This document shows, piece after piece, positions 1 through 10,172 of a stretch of 64,000 nucleotides of DNA. Numbering within the stretch: position 1 is the stretch's first letter; each line of letters opens with the position of its first letter. The stretch covers positions 1-64,000 of the forward strand of contig OOIN01000021.1 of NCBI GenBank assembly GCA_900323505.1, given 5' to 3'. The notes below the pieces were generated by a model, which made no database searches, had not been told where the DNA came from, and was given only the letters and a program-made list of their open reading frames with translations. The position numbers and the translations under genes were made by a program. The DNA comes from Ustilago trichophora (Eukaryota > Basidiomycota > Ustilaginomycetes > Ustilaginales > Ustilaginaceae).

Positions 1-165
1 TAACCCTAACCCTAACCCTAACCCTAACCCTAACCCTAACCCTAACCCTAACCCTAACCCTAACCCTAACCCTAACCCTAACCCTAACCCTAACCCTAAC
101 CCTAACCCTAACCCTAACCCTAACCCTAACCCTAACCCTAACCCTAACCCTAACCCTAACCCTAA
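1..165. repeat. Telomere repeat array (CCCTAA)n
   Basis: About 27.5 perfect head-to-tail copies of the hexamer CCCTAA (TTAGGG on the other strand). The C-rich strand reads 5' to 3' from the left end, as expected for a true left chromosome end with a G-rich 3' overhang. No degenerate repeats were seen. The array stops abruptly at 165 and unique retroelement sequence starts at 166. Confidence 0.99.
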
Positions 166-1468
166 GGTAGATACTATTGATGAGAGATTGGAAGTGTGAC
201 GGCGCATTTGCCAATCCGAATGGCATCACCAGGTACTTGTACAAGCCTAGTTGGGTGCCAAACGCTGTCTTCCATTTGTCGCCTTCTGCAATGCGCACTA
301 GGTTATACGCTGCCTTGAGATCGAGCTTCGTATACACCTTGGCGCTTTGCAGCAAGAACAGCTGCTCTTTGATGAGCGGTAGTGGAGCGCAATTCTTGAT
401 AGTGACCTCGTTGAGCCCTCTGTAGTCCACACAGAGTCGTAACCCTCCATCCTTCTTCGGCACGAAGAGCACTGGTGACCGTGCAGGACTCTTCGACGGT
501 CGGATGAACCCCTTTGCGAGGTTCTCTTCAAGATACTGGCAAAGTTCTTCCATTTCCTTTGGGCCTTTGAGGTACAGTGGTCCTTGAGGAGGCTTGGAGC
601 CCGGTTCAAGCTCGATCCTCAGATTGTGTTCTGTTTGCGGTGGTAGCTGGTCGGCTTCCACTTCATTGAACACCTCTTGGAGGTCTAGATACTTGTCAGG
701 TACCTTCTGCTTAACCTCCTCCTCCTCCTCGACTTCCATCTTGACCCCTTTGTCGGGGCCTGTTGGGACAAAGCCGATCGCAGGAAGCGATTTGGGTGCC
801 ATGTCAAGCAGCATGAACCCTATAGGTCCGTCCTCCCTTGCAGCTCGCAGCAGCTCAATGGCTGACACGAGCTCATTGCCGTGGAACGCTGCTGTCATTA
901 CGGCGCTGCCTCCTCCTGCAATTTCACTTCGAGACTGAGGGGTATTGGTTTCTCAAACTGAGATTGAGTTCGAAAATCCAATTGACGCGTTCTTCAAAGT
1001 GGAGGCCTCTGGACGCGCCGCCGTGAACGTCAGTCTACCTTCCTCCCAGTTAATGCTAGGCTTGAGCCGCTGCAACTGACTGTATCCTATGATGAGGTCG
1101 TAGTCTGCTGCCTGTGCCACGTGCGCCTCTAGTTCTCCAAGCTCCTGTCCGTCTACCGATACTTGTACATCGCCGAGTTGGTCTATATACAGCTTATGAC
1201 CAGTGACGCCGTGAATCGATCTCTTTTTTGTGGGTTTTGTGGGTATGTGATGCTTGATAACAAACAAACTTGAGAGTATGGACAAGCCTGCCCCTGTGTC
1301 GGCGAGTATACGAGCCTGCTGGCCATTGACCAAGCCGGCTAGCTCAAGTACTGGAGCGTTGGCGATAGTAGAGAAACAGAACTGACAACCTGAACTTATA
1401 CACAATGATGGCGATGATGGGTGTAGGGCGAGGCAAGCCATCAATGCCTCGTCCCATCCTCGTTTCCC
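166..1468 (-). pseudogene. Truncated retrotransposon pol (protease and N-terminal reverse transcriptase)
   Basis: One minus-strand frame is open from the gag end to the telomere apart from one TGA at 955-953. The protease part (about 1350-1020) has the catalytic motif LADTGAGLSIL. Reverse transcriptase motifs follow: FVPKKDGGLRLCVDYRGLN near 450, the catalytic-Asp block YTKLDLKAAYN near 330 and the FGLANAPSHFQ block near 200. The YxDD block should come next but is absent because the sequence turns into telomere repeat; the frame stays open into the repeats, reading Arg-Val. Pol lies in the -1 frame relative to gag, with no ATG of its own at the junction. It is dead as an enzyme. Confidence 0.9.
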
Positions 1469-2838
1469 TGCTCTTGACCTTGGTCGACCTCCTCTTGCAA
1501 GGCGGCATCGAGGTCGATCCCCTCATCTTCCTGAGGATCATACTCCAACCCTTCCGCCTCGTGGTCGACCTCTTGGTCAGAAGCAACTACATGGACGCCT
1601 ACTCGAGGGCCTGCAGGTTGTATGACTGCATGGGTGGTCTTCTCTGGACAGTTGTTAGCCCAATGGCCAGGGCGCTTACATATATGGCAAGTGTCGCTGC
1701 CCATGGCCGATGGTCCTTGCGACTGTCTTGGAGGCAGTCTCTGAGCTAGGTGTGGAGGGGGAGGCCTCGTAGCCTCGGGCTTTCGAACTCCAGGTGCTTG
1801 AGTACTTGCCTGCGGGTTCCTAGGCGGGGTGACTACTGTCGACTGGTTGTTCATCCTCCTGGGAATCGACCTATCGGCTGCCTCGAACCTAGCTGCTTGC
1901 TGGTTGACGCCTCTCTGTTGGTCGATTGCCTCGACCTCTTGATACCATCCCCATAATCCCTTGGGAGGGTCACGCTCGAACTTCTCTAAGATGCTTCGAG
2001 TGAGGCCACTACGGAAGAGATGGAACGAGAGCATTGGGTCTTCGACATTGGCCCAACTGTTAAGGTCTCTGAACCGTTTGACATACTTAGTTGCGGTGCC
2101 TGGGTAGTCGTTTGGCATCCTGAGTTTCTGGATCTCATTGAATGCCTCGACTCAAGTGTCCTTTTGGCTATACTGCTCCTTGAGCCGCGTCGTGAAGTGG
2201 CTCCAGTCGTGGAAAAGGATGCCCTCCTGCTCGCAATCGACTCGGAGCTTCGACTTCCACCAATCGCGCACACTGCCTTCAAGATACTGACTCGTATAGG
2301 CAATCATACAACTGTGATTACGAATACCGTGGTTCCTAAACCAGAACTCGGCCTCGACGAAGAACAAGTTGATGTCTTTGGTATCCATCTTTGGGAACGG
2401 GTACTTGAGGATCTTTGTCCAGGCGCCAATGGAGTCCTCGGCGTCCTCCTGCTCCTCCGTAGCGCCTACTGGGTGATGGCGGGTTCCGCCATGTACTCGT
2501 ACGCCCGTGGGTGTAGCATACGTATTGTGCCAGTCGTCTCTTGGTGCCGGGGTCGACGTGGCTCGAGGAGCTGGAGTTGGAGTGACCGGCTCCGACCGTT
2601 GGGCGAGGTCCAGTCGGTCAACGAGACGGCTGACACTCTCGGTGAGCTGTCTCAGGGCTTCGTGGTCAGCCTCCTGCTGTTGGGTCATGGCTATAGCATG
2701 CTGGGCTCGTATCTCCCGGTCGGTGATAGCCCGAGCGCTTAGCCTGGTGACCATTTGCTGGAGTGTAGTGATCTGCTCCTGGAGCGACTCGGGTGTGCTC
2801 CCCAGAGTCGGAGTGGTCTCTATGGGAGGTGAATCCAT
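1441..2838 (-). pseudogene. Retrotransposon gag with one internal stop
   Basis: The frame starts at an ATG at 2838 and ends at TGA 1443-1441. It is broken once, by an in-frame TGA at 2154-2152; both halves lie in the same frame. The upstream half (228 codons) has a Ser/Thr/Pro-rich N-terminus, then a Trp-rich capsid-like block (YLEGSVRDWWKSKLR). The downstream half carries a single zinc knuckle, CHICKRPGHWANNC (C-x2-C-x4-H-x4-C), near 1670, then an acidic C-terminus. This is a standard Ty3/gypsy Gag layout. The rest of the frame looks well preserved, so the element is fairly young or only recently lost function. Confidence 0.85.
1462..1468 (-). promoter_or_regulatory. Candidate -1 ribosomal frameshift heptamer (GGGAAAC)
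   Basis: On the minus strand the heptamer reads G GGA AAC in the gag phase, matching the X XXY YYZ slippery consensus. It lies 18 bases before the gag stop codon. A -1 slip places ribosomes in the protease/RT frame, which has no stop from here to 955. Function is inferred from sequence and phase only. Confidence 0.6.
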
Positions 2839-3140
2839 CGTGGGGTACCACTTGAACGATCCACTCTAATGTCAGGGGTCGTGTGCCTGAGCTCGGATAT
2901 CTAGCGCTGAAGCTTTCTCGAGATGAGATTGAATTCGAGAATGAACCTATGGTGATTCTTGAAATGAGACTTAGGCATGTGTCTCGCGTTGCCCGGTCTC
3001 ACCCACTTCGAGGACACTCAACTTCGAGAATTAGACTGGCACCTCCTCGATGTCACTACAACCTTGAGGAAGACCCTATTAAGATCTTTGAGCTCAACTA
3101 ACTCCTGTGAACACTCCGTTCAGAGGCAATATGTTAAGGC
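2839..3140 (-). other. Retrotransposon 5' leader
   Basis: This lies between the LTR and the gag ATG and has no convincing coding frame. A possible second LTR-like edge pair (TGT at 3060, ACA at 2870 on the minus strand, about 191 bp) lies inside it. I cannot tell whether that is chance, a nested LTR or the true 5' LTR boundary. Confidence 0.5.
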
Positions 3141-3530
3141 TGTAGGGTCTGGTTACCGCCTGGCAGCTACGGTCTGAGGGTAGTCGGGTACGGAGGGGTC
3201 GTAAACACTTGCCGGAGGGGATGGAGGAGTCAGCACTTCAATACTCAAGTTAACAATGAGTGAACTAAGTAATACATGCGACGAGGGTCCGGAGGGAACC
3301 CTCGCCGAGCAGGAGCAACCCTTAAAAAGGGCTGTTGGCCTCTGGAGGGACGCGACGGAAAATTGGTCTGTAGTTTGGCCGAGCCTGTCGCGTCTAGCCC
3401 TCCTGGCCGGTAGGAGGCTGCTGATCGGTGCAGGCCGATCGGCGGATGGCTCCTGATCCAGCGGGCGGCTGTAGCTCTTGTCGGGAATCGGAACAAGGGC
3501 TAACAAAAGGGTTGGGCGACGGTCCCAACA
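3141..3530 (-). repeat. Long terminal repeat of the Ty3-type element
   Basis: On the minus strand the segment starts TGTTGGGACCG and ends CCAGACCCTACA, giving TG...CA ends and imperfect inverted termini (TGTTGGGACC against TGTAGGGTCT). Length about 390 bp, within the usual LTR range. It sits immediately upstream of the leader and gag in the same orientation. The reading frame of the neighbouring P-loop gene loses its character exactly at 3530/3531. The matching target-site duplication cannot be checked because the other end of the element is lost. Confidence 0.7.
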
Positions 3531-4976
3531 CTTGAGCATGTCCACACATGTGGTCGGGCCAGCAAGCTTTCCAACAAAGTTTTTGTGTTGATCAGGGAAT
3601 CGTTGAATCAAGGCGGCTATAGCGGAGGGAGTGGGGTTAGCAAAGTCTTGGCCCCAAACCTTACTGTGAGGACAAATTGGCTGCCGCAGTTGGAGCTCGA
3701 GTTGTGCTAGGAATCCGGGCTTGACGTGGATTGCTGTGGCAAGGGCATGGATGACCAAATTCCAGCACTGAGCAACCTGATGCGTGTCTGTGGTGGCGGA
3801 CGGCGATGAATTGGATGGGTGAGCGGCAGCAGCAAGTCCAAGAAATGAAGATAGGGGAGGGCAGCCCGAGATGAGCATGATCTGGCTCAAGAGGCTATGT
3901 AGCTTGTTGCAGTAGGCAGCGAGAAAAGAGACAATGTAGACGTGGACGTGATTCTGCTCGAGAGTACCCAGCCCAAGGGGTGCGCCGTCGACATCGGTGA
4001 GAAAATATTTTTGATAGCACTCGTTGAAGTAATCAAAAACCTTGGTGCCTTGTGGCGGAAACAAGACTGCCACTTTTGGCTTGGGGCGCATACAAACTAA
4101 CATGCCGGGATGGGAAGCGCTGAGTGTGACGCAGAGCTTGGTCTTGCCAAAACCAGAAGATTGGATGATGGGGAGTACCTTGGCGTAGTACATGTCTTCT
4201 TCCTCGGACGAGGTTGGATTCAAGGTGGAGCTGGGCGCAGTCAGAGCCGTATTGGAAGCTGCCAAAGGTTGTGCAAGAGGCGAGGAGGAGGAGGAGGTGG
4301 ACGCTAAGGCTGGAAGATGGTCAGTGTCTTGCATTTCAACGTCGTCTGTCTCTTCTGCTTGATGGCCTTCTTCTTGACGGCGATGGAGTGCAGCAGCGTC
4401 TCGATGACGCCTGTTACCACGTTCGTGACCCTTGAGGTGTGCCACAAGGAGTTTGACGGCGGGACCCCTGAAAGTGGCAGCGAACGACTGCCAAACTTCT
4501 GAATCTGCCTTGTCCTTGTTGAAGATCTCGGATTTGTTGTGGCTTGATTCAGAATCAGGTGCATCGAACAGAGCATCGGTAAATATGATCAGCAGCTTGA
4601 GATTGTCGAGTGATTTGAGGTATTCAGAGAAGCCATCTTCGTGAGATGAGACAAATTTATCGATTTGGCATTTGGCCTCATCGATAGTGACAGTCTTATG
4701 GACAATCTTGGATACCAGGGGCAAGTCGAGCTTGGGGTTGTTTTGGATAGATTTGCGAAGACCAGTATAGACTGGCGGGTTAGAGATGGCTCTGAGATTG
4801 TGGGGATGATCCGGGGCCTTTTCTGACCATGTGCTAAGCACATACGTGATCTGACTGAGTGCAAAGTTGAGCTTTGCCTTATCCGTAGAGCTATGCCAGT
4901 GCTTGAGGCACTGGTAGAAATTGTTGTCATGATCATCGACGGGGTGATCGTGGCCGTGTTTGTTGACATTAGACAT
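3153..4976 (-). pseudogene. P-loop-like fungal protein truncated by an LTR insertion
   Basis: The open frame is 607 codons, but only codons upstream of 3531 (about 482) look like native coding sequence. The last 125 or so read through the LTR. The native part has a His/Asp-rich N-terminus, a helical region, a low-complexity Glu/Ser linker, then a Walker-A-like SSGFGKTKLCV followed about 30 residues later by a VLFPPQGTK block. That spacing recalls a large, uncharacterised family of basidiomycete NTPase-like proteins; this is from memory and I do not know their function. The native C-terminus is missing. The start ATG at 4976 is the first in frame; a spliced upstream exon cannot be excluded. 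Expression is unknown. Confidence 0.6.
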
Positions 4977-5416
4977 GACGGACGTTGTCTCACCACCTTG
5001 ATGCTGTTAGACATGGTTGTGATGACAATGGTGGTGCGGTGGATGATGATCGTCATGACGAGAAAGGGGACTGAGCAGGTGAATGAATGAATGAATGAAT
5101 GAATGAATGAATGAATGCGTGAATGCGTGCGTGCGTGGCGCAGTAAGTTGTCCGAGTTCCGAGTTTCTCAGACAAGCTTAACATCGTGTTCGCAACTCCG
5201 ATGAAAGAAAGGTGGTTTTGTGAGATCCAGCACTCATGACATCTCTTGTAAGCGACGCTTTCCTTTTCATCTTTCCAAGACACCGCTCAAAGAGACTGTC
5301 CGACAAAGATCCCGAGATCCGATCTGAAGTTTACTCTTTGCCCGAAGAGAGAGACGCACCAGTCACCTGGGATCTTCTCCTTAACTGGCCTCCATCACAG
5401 TATCACCAAAGACAAG
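4977..5416. other. Divergent intergenic region with (GAAT)n array
   Basis: Separates the P-loop gene remnant from ATP11. It holds nine tandem GAAT units at 5081-5117, running into GCGT units to about 5135. No gene was recognised. Confidence 0.7.
5081..5117. repeat. Tetranucleotide array (GAAT)x9
   Basis: Nine copies of GAAT, followed by mixed GAATGCGT and GCGT units to about 5135. Lies just upstream of the truncated P-loop gene. Confidence 0.95.
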
Positions 5417-6610
5417 ATGAGGTCACTGGGGAACACCCTGCGCAGCACGTGCGCCTCCATTGCTTCTGGATCCCATATTTGTGCGATTCACCACGCTAGA
5501 CCTCGCCTCGCGCAGGTGTCACCTCCTCTTCCTTTTTCATGGTCCCATCTTAAGTCCGACGACCAGTCTCGAGGCGTCAGCGAATTCGAAGCAAAAGCAA
5601 CCACATCCTCCATCGGTCAAGATCATCGTGCATCGGTGCAGCACAAGCGCGACCGTAAACTTCGCGAGTATGAAGCAAAGATTAAAGTCAAGGCAATGCA
5701 GGAAGGCTTGTCTCCAGAAGAGTTCAAGCGGCGTTCACTCGAGTCTGCCGCTGTCAAGTCTCCACAGTCAGCCACCACCAACACTGCAGCCAACGAGACA
5801 GTGATGGCCAAGGCTGGCTCCTTATCTGAGGTGGAAAAGCGCGATCGAGCGCTGGCTGAAGCCATGAAACAACGATCGAAAGCCGAAGCAGCCAAGAAAC
5901 TCGCTTCCGGTCAGGTCCATTCAACTCCTACAGGCGCACAACAAGGCCCCATCAAGCCGCTCAGCAAGATTCTAGACGTGGAAAAGCTCATGACGCAAGA
6001 CAGGGAGACCATCACCGAGCTCTGGGCTGGCTATCACACGATCAAGAACAAGCTGTCGGCTGTCATTCCCACGGAAAAGTACCTCGAGATGCTGGCCAAT
6101 GCTCGCAAATATCCTCAATTCGTCCTCCCGCTCCCGCGTCAAGTCATTGATGAAGAATCAGATGCACCAGGTAGCTCCAAGCAGGCTTTCGAGATGCAAT
6201 TCCTCGAATGGGCGGTGGTACCCAACACTGCTGGCGAGGGCCTGCCACCTTCCGCTACCACGCTGTTCACCCCGTTGGCTGAATACAAGCTCAAGCAAGA
6301 TTTCAGCCAACCCGTCCTGATCCTCACTTTCTACACCGATTTATGCCAGAGCAATGGTCTGGTGCTCATGAGGGGCGAGGTGACCGGTCTCAACGAAAAA
6401 ACTGGAAAGGGTGGCCGCATTGATCAGGCGCAAGCACAGCTGCTCGCTCTGACCCTTCAGCGATTCTATCTTCCTTCCTCTTCCTCCGGCACCCCATCCC
6501 AGAGTGAGAGCAGTGATCAGTCGACTTGTGCCAAGCTCTTGCACGACTTCCACCGGCAGCCAGAGAAATTCGACGTCGAGGAGCTTGTCAATGTAGCCTT
6601 CCGTCTTTGA
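5417..6610 (+). CDS. ATP11: ATP11-family mitochondrial F1-ATPase assembly factor
   Basis: 397 codons, apparently intron-less. In other eukaryotes Atp11/ATPAF1 is a mitochondrial matrix chaperone that holds the F1 beta subunit until it pairs with alpha. Residues 1-35 are basic, Ser/Ala-rich and free of acidic residues, as in a mitochondrial presequence. A Lys/Glu-rich helical region follows (about 70-165). The conserved domain starts near residue 178 (PIKPLSKILDVEKL) and continues to the end, including the VLPLPR and LEWAVVPN segments. The length is near the upper end for the family (about 300-400). The start is the first ATG in a frame that matches the presequence expectation. It is the first intact gene from the telomere, only 5.4 kb in, and is convergent with UTP6. 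Confidence 0.92.
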   Translation: MRSLGNTLRSTCASIASGSHICAIHHARPRLAQVSPPLPFSWSHLKSDDQSRGVSEFEAKATTSSIGQDHRASVQHKRDRKLREYEAKIKVKAMQEGLSPEEFKRRSLESAAVKSPQSATTNTAANETVMAKAGSLSEVEKRDRALAEAMKQRSKAEAAKKLASGQVHSTPTGAQQGPIKPLSKILDVEKLMTQDRETITELWAGYHTIKNKLSAVIPTEKYLEMLANARKYPQFVLPLPRQVIDEESDAPGSSKQAFEMQFLEWAVVPNTAGEGLPPSATTLFTPLAEYKLKQDFSQPVLILTFYTDLCQSNGLVLMRGEVTGLNEKTGKGGRIDQAQAQLLALTLQRFYLPSSSSGTPSQSESSDQSTCAKLLHDFHRQPEKFDVEELVNVAFRL

Positions 6611-6857
6611 TTGTCGTCAAGCTGACTTGACGGCCACGTAAAGTTTGTTAGACGCATACAGTACATATCTTGTAATCTATTTATTCCGACCGAAACTCAT
6701 AGAAGGCCGCGACAAGCATCCACGACATAGGGCAAAAGACTGTGGCATTCCGGTGACATGGAGAAAAAAAAAAGACTGATGCAAAAAGTGACGGAGTACA
6801 ACGTGCAATATGTACAGTACACAATCTGGATGTCTTGACAGAAGCAACACGTCAAAC

Positions 6858-9719
6858 TTAGTTTTCCGCCTCGCTGACCTGGTCGTCCCCCTCATCGCTG
6901 AAGATGACACTCGACTGAGCTTGCAGCTCCTCGCAGATGCGTTGCCACTTTTTCTCAACCAGCTTGTATTCGCTCTTCTCCATGATGCTCCTGCAAGTCT
7001 CGAGAGCCTTGAGCGCCTTGGTCATATCTCTGGCCGCCAGATATTGCAGGTAGCTGATCCAGACCTCGACGTCGCCTGACTTGATCTGGAGCAACTTGGT
7101 GAAGATCTTTTCGACCAGCTGAGCATCCTTCTGCGACTTTGGTGACTTGCCGTCGTCATCTTGCTCCTCTTCGGCTCGCAGCTCCGAGATGACGTCAAGC
7201 CAGGCTTGGTGCGAAGCAAAAGAAGACTGGAGCAGCCACGAGATTGAATCGTCGTGCTTGCCGAACGAGCGGCTAAGTCGAACATAGCGAAGCACGCACA
7301 GGTCGTGCACATCTTGGCGGTATCGCTGCACAGCTTCGAGATCGGCGACCCTGTTGTTGCTACGGGAGAGCAAGGAGCCCGTCTCTTGCACCGCCCATCG
7401 ATACTGTTCCGAGCTGTAGCGGAAGGCAGCCTTGGATTCCTTGCGACTCGATTCCCGTGCGCCTACAACACCATAGTCAAGCCAGTCCAAGAAGCGCGTC
7501 CACAAGCTGTTCTCAGCTGAGAGTGTTGAAGATTCGGTATCCACGCTCTCTGAACAAGCTTGCAGCCCTCGACGCCATTCTGCTGCGATCGAGTCTCGGC
7601 TGATTTCGATGCTCTTGTCCGATGTCTTGGCCAATTGGGACAAAACCAGGATGCGGAGTCTCCAGAGTTCGTCGCTTGTGGGAAAGCTGCCACTCCTAGT
7701 GGCATCCTTGAGCTGGTCCTTGAGCTTCGTGAGTTTCTTGTTGCGCTCCTTATCATTTTGGATTGCGATGGCAGCGTCAATCTTCTTGCGCAATGTAACA
7801 GCACGCATCTGAGCAGTCTCGATCGTGGGACCAGCTGCTTGAGCTTCTTTGATCAGCTGCGCTTGCACAGATTCGAGGTAATGCAAGAGATTGGGTTCGT
7901 CGATGCCTGAGCGTGATTCGTCGCTGAGCATCTCGATGAGCAGCGCCGTGGTGGTGTAGAACTCGGACTTTGCGCTCTTGCCTGCTCGCTGTGCAGCGTC
8001 GATGGGTGCTTGAACACAAAGAGCTCGCAGCTGGGTGATGGCGTCACTGACAGCAGTGGGGAGCACGCCCGAGTCTGCCAACTTTTGATAGGCGGGAGAA
8101 GCCCTTGTGCTGGCATTAGTCTGGACAGTCAATAGCGATTGCAAGAGCTGCAGGATCAGGAGAACGGAAAGCGAGGACGATGAGGTTGCGGATGCCTTTT
8201 GCAAGTTTGAGGCAGTGGTGCTTCTGAGCTGCGATGCAAGTTCGAGTAGGCCGTCGGTCTCGTTGGAAAAAGTGGTGCGAAGGAGGCTGGCTGAGGAAAG
8301 GAGTCTGTGCGAGTCCATCTCTTCTGTGTTGGCAACTTGGGCTGCTGTGCGATCGGACTTGTCGGCATAGTAGGAAGTCTCGGGTGTGAAGGATCGGAGG
8401 GAGGATGCGAGTGCGGCAGGGGCAAAGTGAGACCAGCCCCATCGTTGACGATGCGAAAGATGCTGGTAGACGCCATCCAGGAGGCGACGTCGGAGTGCCT
8501 GTCCAGTCTTTGGGGCATCCGGATTTATGGGCTCGGCAAATGGGAAAGTCTGGAGCAGCTCGATGAGAGCAATGAGGAAGACAAAGTGGAGGTGTGGAGC
8601 CATGGATTCGAGAGCGCTGCCGATGAGGAAGAGTGGGATATTGCCTCGAAGGATGGCGATCTGTGTTGGTGGGATTGTGGACATGTTTCTGGGCGTAAAG
8701 GTGTTGGGCTTGGACTTGATGGCTTGGGCGACCTCGGGCTTGGCGTCGTCGTCCTTGTCTGGCACCTGATTTAGCAAGATACGTTCCTGGTCATCGTTGT
8801 CATCATCAGGGTCGACGGGGTTGGTTGCACTGAACGCTGAGTCGATATCGACGGCAGCTTGGTGAGCTTCTACAGACTCGGTGGAAGAGCTGAGGTTGGT
8901 GTCATCGTCGGTGGCTTGAGTGTCCCATTCGAGGCCTAGTACAAGCCATCTCCTGCGAAGGCGCTCGATAAAGACAAGCTCCATACGAATGTATTCGACC
9001 CAAAGGCGAAGTAGGTCAGCTTCTCGAGATGATAAGATGAAAAGGGGAGGTCCAGAAGCGGAGCTGGTGCCGACGTCGGTGGTGGCTACTGAAGCATCGT
9101 GTCGGAGACGCTTGTTGGAGGCGGAAGCATCTGCGTTGCTGGAGCGCTTGCTGCTGCCGGAAGAGGTAGAATCGGTGGTGGTTTGCTTGTTCCATGGAAG
9201 TCGATTTAAGCGAAGAGCGCGCTGCAGAAGTGAACGGGCGGCTGTGGTGGAAGCATTGTCGTTAAGTTCGTGGTCAGCGGCAGCAAGCCAAAGAGGAACA
9301 TTGTTGGGGTGAAGGGAGAGAGCTCGAGCGTAGACGCGAGCTGTGACTAGTCGCATCTTTCTGCTTTTTGCAAATGCGATGTACTGCTGCCATGCATCGA
9401 CATCGTATTTGAACTTGAGCACGAGACGCTCGTAGATGGCGATGATGTGAGCGGTGTGGTGAGTTGCAATGTCGCGGTGGAAAGCGCGAGGCAGACCGAT
9501 GCGGTTAGCCTTTACATTGATGAGATCGGCGAGGTTGCGCTCAAACTGGGCGTATCGTAGGTAATCGTTCTTGTCGGGATCTCTTCGTAGAAGGCGGGCC
9601 TCGAAGGTGTGACGTTGTGTGGTGATGGAACGAAGCTGGTCTTTGGAGAAGACATTGTTGTCGTCGAGCAGCTGGAGCTGTGGAACGGAACGCTCGAGCT
9701 GATACTGCACCCTTTCCAT
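6858..9719 (-). CDS. UTP6: UTP6, U3 snoRNP / small-subunit processome protein
   Basis: 953 codons without an intron. Utp6 belongs to the UTP-B subcomplex that acts on the 35S pre-rRNA in the nucleolus. The N-terminus is diagnostic: MERVQYQLERSVPQL, then HAT-type helical repeats containing W-Y/F...A motifs (DVDAWQQYIAFAKS near residue 110, NNVPLWLAAADHEL near 140). More HAT-like repeats are near the C-terminus (DVEVWISYLQYLA). The protein is much longer than yeast Utp6 (about 440 residues) or the human one (about 600). The extra length comes from Ser/Asp-rich low-complexity insertions (about residues 195-225 and 280-320) and a long middle region. The end is acidic. It is divergent from the SEC4-type gene. 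Confidence 0.88.
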   Translation of the reverse strand: MERVQYQLERSVPQLQLLDDNNVFSKDQLRSITTQRHTFEARLLRRDPDKNDYLRYAQFERNLADLINVKANRIGLPRAFHRDIATHHTAHIIAIYERLVLKFKYDVDAWQQYIAFAKSRKMRLVTARVYARALSLHPNNVPLWLAAADHELNDNASTTAARSLLQRALRLNRLPWNKQTTTDSTSSGSSKRSSNADASASNKRLRHDASVATTDVGTSSASGPPLFILSSREADLLRLWVEYIRMELVFIERLRRRWLVLGLEWDTQATDDDTNLSSSTESVEAHQAAVDIDSAFSATNPVDPDDDNDDQERILLNQVPDKDDDAKPEVAQAIKSKPNTFTPRNMSTIPPTQIAILRGNIPLFLIGSALESMAPHLHFVFLIALIELLQTFPFAEPINPDAPKTGQALRRRLLDGVYQHLSHRQRWGWSHFAPAALASSLRSFTPETSYYADKSDRTAAQVANTEEMDSHRLLSSASLLRTTFSNETDGLLELASQLRSTTASNLQKASATSSSSLSVLLILQLLQSLLTVQTNASTRASPAYQKLADSGVLPTAVSDAITQLRALCVQAPIDAAQRAGKSAKSEFYTTTALLIEMLSDESRSGIDEPNLLHYLESVQAQLIKEAQAAGPTIETAQMRAVTLRKKIDAAIAIQNDKERNKKLTKLKDQLKDATRSGSFPTSDELWRLRILVLSQLAKTSDKSIEISRDSIAAEWRRGLQACSESVDTESSTLSAENSLWTRFLDWLDYGVVGARESSRKESKAAFRYSSEQYRWAVQETGSLLSRSNNRVADLEAVQRYRQDVHDLCVLRYVRLSRSFGKHDDSISWLLQSSFASHQAWLDVISELRAEEEQDDDGKSPKSQKDAQLVEKIFTKLLQIKSGDVEVWISYLQYLAARDMTKALKALETCRSIMEKSEYKLVEKKWQRICEELQAQSSVIFSDEGDDQVSEAEN

Positions 9720-10172
9720 GGCGGATAGAATAGCTTAGACCAGCAAGAGAGTCACGGGTGTGGTGTCAAGGACGAATGGTGTACAGTAGACACACCGAAC
9801 CAACGTTGAACGAGCAGTTGCAAGAGGGTCCAAGAAGAAAGGAGCTGTGAGAATTTTTTTTAATTTTTTTTTTTTTTTTTTTCTTTTTGGAAGCGTGAGT
9901 GGAGGTTGATGTGAAAGTTTCTCGCACGACACGGACAACTCGCTCTCTCGCTCTCTCGCTCTCTCAAAGTCTCAGCGCGAGTTAGAGTAGCAACCCAGCA
10001 CAGCGTGAGCGGGTGCGTCAGATGGCAAGGTGTCACTGTGTTGAATCGTAGGCAGCTCAACCTCCACTGCTCATCTCTACATTTTGTCGCTTGCATCCTC
10101 TACACGTTCGGCCACCATCCATCGTTCCCTCGTTGATTATCAACCTACCTCCTGTCCTTCTTCCAGATAACT
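9720..10172. other. UTP6/SEC4 divergent promoter region
   Basis: Contains a T-rich run at about 9855-9895, a CTCTCGCT-type repeat at 9941-9966 and pyrimidine-rich sequence towards 10172, typical of leaders in this genome. The 3' part is probably the noncoding first exon of the SEC4-type gene. No coding gene was seen. Confidence 0.6.

Follow-up and report, generated by a model that had tools for sequence, protein, structure and literature searches.

Direct capping of truncated chromosome ends with telomere repeats is already well described, and helicase-bearing chromosome ends are also known from smut fungi. In Pyricularia (Magnaporthe) oryzae, two reports describe nested truncations of subtelomeres and telomeric retrotransposons that are capped directly (PMC7367193, PMC8381367). 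The same sources give an in-frame seed for 17 of 23 truncations of the MoTeR elements, a terminal C in five of the six exceptions, and seeds of 1–4 nt in 19 of 24 events in rDNA. For Plasmodium falciparum, healing is reported at 5 of 28 reference ends, with nine events that all began at one template position, GGGTT (PMC5550746). Ustilago maydis ends (UTASa/UTASb) are described as carrying TTAGGG repeats that adjoin RecQ-like helicase sequence (PMC6167521), and the account of the telomere-to-telomere genome of Sporisorium scitamineum lists 35 helicase genes at 22 chromosome ends, with no junction anatomy described in the text consulted (PMC4466345).

We analysed a 64,000-bp stretch of DNA (the window) that comprises positions 1–64,000 of contig C20 (717 kb) in a 38.8-Mb assembly of 45 contigs. 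Because the window starts at the left end of C20, the telomere array at its beginning is a contig end (C20L). On the arrangement of its sequence, we consider it highly probable that this end is a telomerase-healed break in the relic of a Ty3-type retrotransposon, probably formed after recombination between LTRs. As a single event the C20L join is ordinary for this genome; it is the set of joins that deserves attention, together with their possible tie to one base of the telomerase RNA. The features discussed below are collected in Table 1.

Table 1. Features near the left end of contig C20, in window coordinates (a slash marks the join).
Feature	Position	Strand	Basis
Terminal telomere array	1–165	-	100% matches; among 29 pure arrays out of 80
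Telomere join, ...CTACC/TTAGGG on minus strand	165–166	.	Sequence reading
Ty3-type reverse transcriptase (RT), cut before its end	166–952	-	RVT_1 1–137 of 205; Ty3 structure matches
Retropepsin-like protease ORF, in-frame TGA at 953–955	953–1522	-	ORF translation and domain match
gag with CCHC knuckle, split by in-frame TGA at 2152–2154	1441–2865	-	ORF translation and domain match
Gag-adjoining 262 bp of LTR A, the 952-bp LTR that belongs to the element; 690 bp missing	2870–3131	-	Comparison with genome copies
LTR B (TGTT...AACA), complete at 399 bp, from a second family	3132–3530	-	Genome copies, flanks
Subtelomeric gene without Pfam match, 5' portion only, ending at the LTR	3531–5006	-	Full to stop on homeologous arm C23
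First core gene, ATP11, for a mitochondrial F1 assembly factor	5252–6610	+	Domain match, database relative
Utp6-like U3 snoRNA-associated protein	6858–9734	-	Domain match

A telomere array joined directly to a truncated Ty3-type element

The array consists of (TAACCC)27.5, which reads (TTAGGG)27.5 on the minus strand, and its length lies inside the range of 120–237 bp (median 178) that array zones span at the 80 telomeric ends of the assembly. Reading the window across positions 165/166 revealed no helicase, satellite or transition zone between the array and the RT fragment. This confirms the earlier note on this DNA, which had described a direct telomere–RT join free of degenerate, satellite or RecQ-type sequence.

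The minus-strand ORF that begins at position 952 stays open up to the join, where it reads ...MPFGLANAPSHFQSLINSIY. Its match to the Pfam family RVT_1 stops at profile position 137 of 205, and the RT is thus cut before its end. Among solved structures, the best matches of the fragment are Ty3 RTs (4ol8, E 2e-35; 7q5b, E 4.5e-35). LTRs, a gag with a CCHC knuckle, a protease and an RT closest to Ty3 together place the element among Ty3-type LTR retrotransposons; RNase H, integrase and a second LTR are absent from the copy in the window, as the contig ends inside the RT. The pol frame had been called intact, and this holds for the RT fragment, but in-frame TGA codons interrupt both gag and the protease–RT frame, so the element was, or became, a relic. 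No long, near-identical match to the 3-kb element exists elsewhere in the assembly, and the longer matches of its coding parts are 71–75% identical (40 of 47 candidates scored).

Members of this element family are terminal at 2 of the 80 telomeric ends. At the second, the right end of C6, the cut lies 30 bp beyond the LTR of the element, at CCCAC/TTAGTTAGGG, and a short stub of satellite separates it from the array. We considered a telomere-targeted retrotransposon of the MoTeR, TRAS or SART kind and rejected it, since the inspected copies of LTR A lie in ordinary sequence, many of them far from contig ends, and 8 of the 18 full-length copies are flanked by ordinary 5-bp duplications.

The native sequence at C20L ends in CTACC. 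Relatives at ~72% identity read ATACCGTGAC there; at the join, their ATACC/GTGAC corresponds to CTACC/TTAGGG in the window, with nothing in common past the C. C alone likely served as the seed, in agreement with the minimal microhomology that had been proposed for the join. As in described cases of chromosome healing, telomere repeats stand directly on sequence of non-telomeric origin that is shortened in comparison with a reference (the RT is cut, and the homeologous arm differs), and there is little or no homology beyond a telomerase-compatible seed (C, CT or CTT at joins in this genome; at C20L, none past C against the 72% relatives).

The homeologous arm and the LTR border

Similarity between C20 and a second contig, C23, begins exactly at window position 3531 and amounts to 87% identity over 3531–9825. 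Distal to that position C23 has 9,943 bp, in whose place C20 carries 3,530 bp of other sequence. Reading outward, C23 carries the subtelomeric gene through to its stop, a spacer, a 1,692-aa RecQ-like helicase ORF that is read towards the telomere, and the telomere itself. The helicase ORF matches Pfam DEAD and Helicase_C, and its best NCBIfam match is a RecQ subfamily, at a score below the curated cut-off. ATP11 lies 5.3 kb from the end on C20 and, by offset, ~12 kb from the end on C23, so it is near an end anyway; the proposal that the break had brought ATP11 close to a telomere stands as to its present position, but the gene is subtelomeric on the homeologous arm too.

The 87% identity of the two arms suggests that the assembly, which seems to hold two diverged subgenomes, derives from what looks like an interspecific hybrid, or from a mixed or dikaryotic sample. 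At the loci compared (C20 with C23, C13 with C14) the subgenomes are 82–87% identical. The closest database relative of the ATP11 in the window (93%) comes from Ustilago trichophora, and another strain of that species is listed with a genome of 20.7 Mb (PMC8951962).

The 262-bp repeat beside gag has 20-odd relatives in the genome. When 20 copies were read onward, 18 of them proved to be 952 bp long (TGTCAG...TGTAACA); the window copy stops at 262 bp. LTR B starts exactly where LTR A stops, and its best copies elsewhere are 93 and 91% identical. The sequences flanking LTR B in the window differ, with CAATA on the left (in LTR A) and CTTGA on the right (in the gene). This border reads most simply as the product of recombination between two B LTRs, one in the gene and one inside LTR A; the event would have been either an exchange with another locus or a deletion within the arm. 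Because a complete LTR B with non-matching flanks stands between the element and the gene, the arm may have been altered by such an event before the RT broke. LTR-mediated recombination, not the RT break, had perhaps already replaced or removed the original arm end.

The force of the LTR B flanks is weakened by the many LTR copies elsewhere that also have no target duplications. Exact 5-bp duplications flank 8 of the 18 full-length LTR A copies and not the other 10; for LTR B, seven other copies fetched out of 20 other matches listed (some partial) include three with exact 5-bp duplications, one with a near match and three with none. Target duplications that are old or have mutated could give LTR B the look of a recombination product. 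That LTR A is truncated precisely where LTR B starts is an argument independent of target duplications. The rearrangements at this arm end are thus probably two, not one, and the earlier claim that a single break in the RT accounts for the loss of everything distal is not borne out.

A search of the genome with the C23 gene end, for a displaced copy of the lost arm, returned complete copies on C41 (99%) and C24 (87–91%) and partial copies on C19 (285 bp, 90%) and C31 (67%). None of the gene fragments found in the genome ends at the LTR junction, and a displaced copy of the lost C20 arm was dropped as a candidate. The 99% identity between C41:297462–299322 and C23:8100–9960, which cover copies of the subtelomeric gene, points to recent exchange between arms. 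The gene family (window 3531–5006; L071:8135–9988) contains an SSGFGKT P-loop-like stretch and has no Pfam match.

Truncated and capped ends across the assembly

All 90 contig ends of the assembly were read; 80 are telomeric and 10 are not. Helicase matches occur at 19 of the 79 telomeric ends tested, and 17 of these are capped inside a RecQ-like ORF, at 15 positions. The 17 leave out the left end of C14, where satellite lies between helicase and array, and the right end of C19, where the cap falls just after the stop. At least 44 of the 79 ends are truncated, in that a copy elsewhere of ≥90% identity continues past the join. This count derives from 47 listed ends, after removal of C6R (a self-match) and of C23L and C44R (whose differences are confined to the array). 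It is made per end, with both members of a pair that has a common junction included, and is a lower bound because the comparison set consisted of 600-base ends and fetched loci only; some joins are located to within 8 bases. The C20L join therefore lacks the exceptional character once ascribed to it: pure arrays stand at 29 of the 80 ends, caps inside a helicase ORF at 17 of 79, and truncated copies of sequence that continues elsewhere at 44 of 79 or more. A like origin, by breakage and capping under one rule, seems to apply to many other ends of the genome.

Identical telomere junctions were observed in eight pairs of ends (C4R/C5R, C8L/C8R, C3L/C27L, C13R/C39L, C21R/C30R, C26R/C42L, C29L/C31L and C23L/C44R). 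Capped ends thus seem either to be passed by copying from one chromosome to another or to predate a split.

A putative telomere-inserted element 'X', recognised by the string TTATATGACTGTCTGGT at 31 sites, was dropped when the left end of C1 showed the string to be part of a 706-bp tandem satellite. The 31 marker sites of this subtelomeric satellite lie within ~11 kb of contig ends, in a single orientation towards the end, and some of them directly follow a TTAGGG stub.

Base preference at telomere junctions

The 80 telomeric ends reduce to 72 unique junctions. The repeat begins as TTAGGG in 32 of these, and a C precedes it in 27, C20L included; the other five have no preceding C. An initial set of 71 unique junctions gave C before TTAGGG in 26 of 31 (binomial p 3e-8 against 0.35). 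Under a null of random breaks and random register, C/TTAGGG junctions had a mean of 4.3 and a maximum of 14 in 5000 runs, compared with the 27 observed. Across all registers, C precedes the array at 39 of 72 junctions (null mean 24, maximum 38 in 5000 runs). With the register fixed at TTAGGG, the null yields a mean of 18.9 such C junctions and up to 36, so that 27 alone is not extreme; this null also places ~54 of 72 junctions in the TTAGGG class, only about one third of them with C, and against it the observed C share is extreme.

The native continuation is known at 14 unique C junctions. The C itself is native, and it is followed by TT in six cases, by T in four and by other sequence in four; the native ends were therefore C, CT or CTT. 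These ends suggest an alignment in which the broken 3' end (C, CT or CTT) would pair at and just 3' of the telomerase RNA template (3'-GAA-5'). The second base that this alignment predicts (A) is present in 9 of 27 C junctions and a purine in 18 of 27, a weak preference, and only the first base 3' of the template clearly fits the junction bias. In the set of 71 junctions, GGG-start junctions follow T in 7 of 8 cases and AGGG-start junctions follow C in 7 of 11. Pairing with the template flank does not explain these biases (AGGG after C, GGG after T), nor that for AG/TTAGGG.

Candidate telomerase RNA genes

A published account gives UAACCCUAA as the telomerase template of U. maydis and a template length of 11 nt for other Ustilaginales (PMC10035886). 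We searched the genome with three template patterns; the prediction of a flanking G preceded the searches. The third pattern, which excludes C after the template and allows A, G or T, gave 74 matches, mostly at telomere ends, with about a dozen in the interior. From these interior matches we chose a pair, because the same 13 bases (TCCTAACCCTAAG) occur at similar contig positions at C13:86965–86977 and C14:91077–91089, both on the minus strand; G after the template is one of the three outcomes that the pattern allows. The template followed by G and preceded by a base other than C has 24 matches in the genome, among which no homeologous pair was seen. The 11-nt form of the template flanked by bases other than C was discarded, its five matches being dissimilar and free of CE motifs.

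C13 and C14 are 82% identical around the two loci, and the template and the GTTGTT that follows it (GUUGUU in RNA) are identical. As in ter1 genes of Ustilaginales, the template is accompanied by upstream CE1–CE3 motifs and a downstream Sm-like site: CE1 and CE2 lie at approximately -175 and -165, a CE3-like motif reads CCTTGACC, and an Sm motif lies at approximately +1200. A P6.1 search of the genome with two mismatches gave 135 matches, versus 81 for the reversed control; strict patterns gave no match at C13 or C14, and a TTGGGCTCTT stretch is present ~0.6 kb downstream. On these motifs, the two loci are probable telomerase RNA genes of both subgenomes, with the template CCUAACCCUAA. Because the probable gene reads CCUAACCCUAA-G in both subgenomes, the C bias at the joins is best explained by alignment of broken ends at the template flank.

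A tentative but quite possible extension is that, in this smut and perhaps in other fungi such as P. oryzae, the sites at which broken chromosomes heal are set by the base immediately 3' of the template in the telomerase RNA: ends resected to C, CT or CTT would pair with 3'-GAA-5' and be extended as TTAGGG. Most ends would then be healed truncations, and their joins a natural readout of the primer choice of telomerase.

Origin of the C20 left end

What is observed is the structure of the end and its homeologous counterpart, an LTR A that is truncated, an LTR B whose flanks do not match, many ends of similar make and the bias towards C; from these we infer an order of events in which recombination and telomerase are the agents. 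The ancestral arm would have resembled the homeologue C23, with the gene, a spacer, a RecQ-like helicase and the telomere. An element with LTR B would then have inserted into the subtelomeric gene, and the B LTR in the gene may have recombined with a B LTR that lay inside the LTR of a Ty3-type element of the A family. Such an exchange would leave the A element as the terminal sequence and one LTR B, flanked by sequences that do not match. A later break in the RT of the A element, perhaps after replicative erosion, would have provided a 3' end that telomerase extended past the native C with TTAGGG. A break inside the element healed by telomerase, as the earlier note had suggested, is the best explanation we can offer for a pure array on a cut RT.

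Three other origins were weighed. Telomeric reads or polishing could have placed the array on a contig that in truth continues or that broke in a repeat, and the homeologous arm does run on for ~10 kb with other sequence. We regard such an assembly artefact as unlikely: arrays of similar length stand at 80 of the 90 contig ends, confusion between loci is improbable for a 3-kb element that has no near-identical long match elsewhere, and the junction obeys the genome-wide C bias, which would hardly be expected from an artefact. Capture of the array from another end, by recombination or break-induced replication, draws on the several ends with common junctions and long identical flanks, which indicate that exchange between ends occurs in this genome. 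The flank at C20L, however, is common to no other end compared; only the telomere itself is shared, and it begins where the RT stops. The bias in the preceding base at unique joins is in line with alignment of a primer with a template, and capture seems quite improbable.

The cut in the RT could also mark an incomplete cDNA that was captured at the chromosome end. The orientation of the element, with its 5' part inward and the cut part facing the telomere, is compatible with this, as is the end at C6R, where the same family is cut near its 5' end. The inner border speaks against it, since this border is not an element end and instead joins a truncated LTR A to a complete LTR B; the in-frame stops of the element, the divergence of its relatives and the helicase genes that are cut in the same manner do likewise. 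We therefore hold cDNA capture to be very unlikely and retain the healed break in the Ty3-type relic as the preferred account of C20L.

Comparison with known systems

A single assembly here provides dozens of natural telomere joins, many of them with a near-identical uncut copy elsewhere. These uncut copies reveal the native sequence past each break, and the choice of non-telomeric ends by telomerase thus becomes testable in a fungus. The joins further suggest a concrete RNA base as the chooser of healed ends. The sequence next to telomeres in this smut documents breakage for a short time only, and a gene that abuts a telomere here need not indicate a rare event. A search of open-access literature at the level of titles and abstracts showed no report in which a C at telomere joins is related to the base on the 3' side of the template in a fungal telomerase RNA.

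The smut ends resemble those of P. oryzae in the direct capping of truncated ends and in the base concerned, as the terminal C of the MoTeR exceptions is the same base as here. The P. oryzae events, unlike those described here, were also seen in new cultures and reads, and they involve MoTeRs, which are telomeric retrotransposons, whereas C20L carries the relic of a Ty3-type LTR element. The sources consulted give the P. oryzae terminal C without a tie to telomerase RNA; here it may be linked to the flank of a candidate template. In P. falciparum, as in the smut, repeats are fused inside truncated genes at start sites that fit the telomerase template; the reported start there is the GGGTT position only, and the commonest start here is TTAGGG after C. 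With its helicase and TTAGGG repeats, the left end of C23 is like the described ends of U. maydis, whereas C20L has no helicase, and the helicase copies of this genome are cut at 15 positions.
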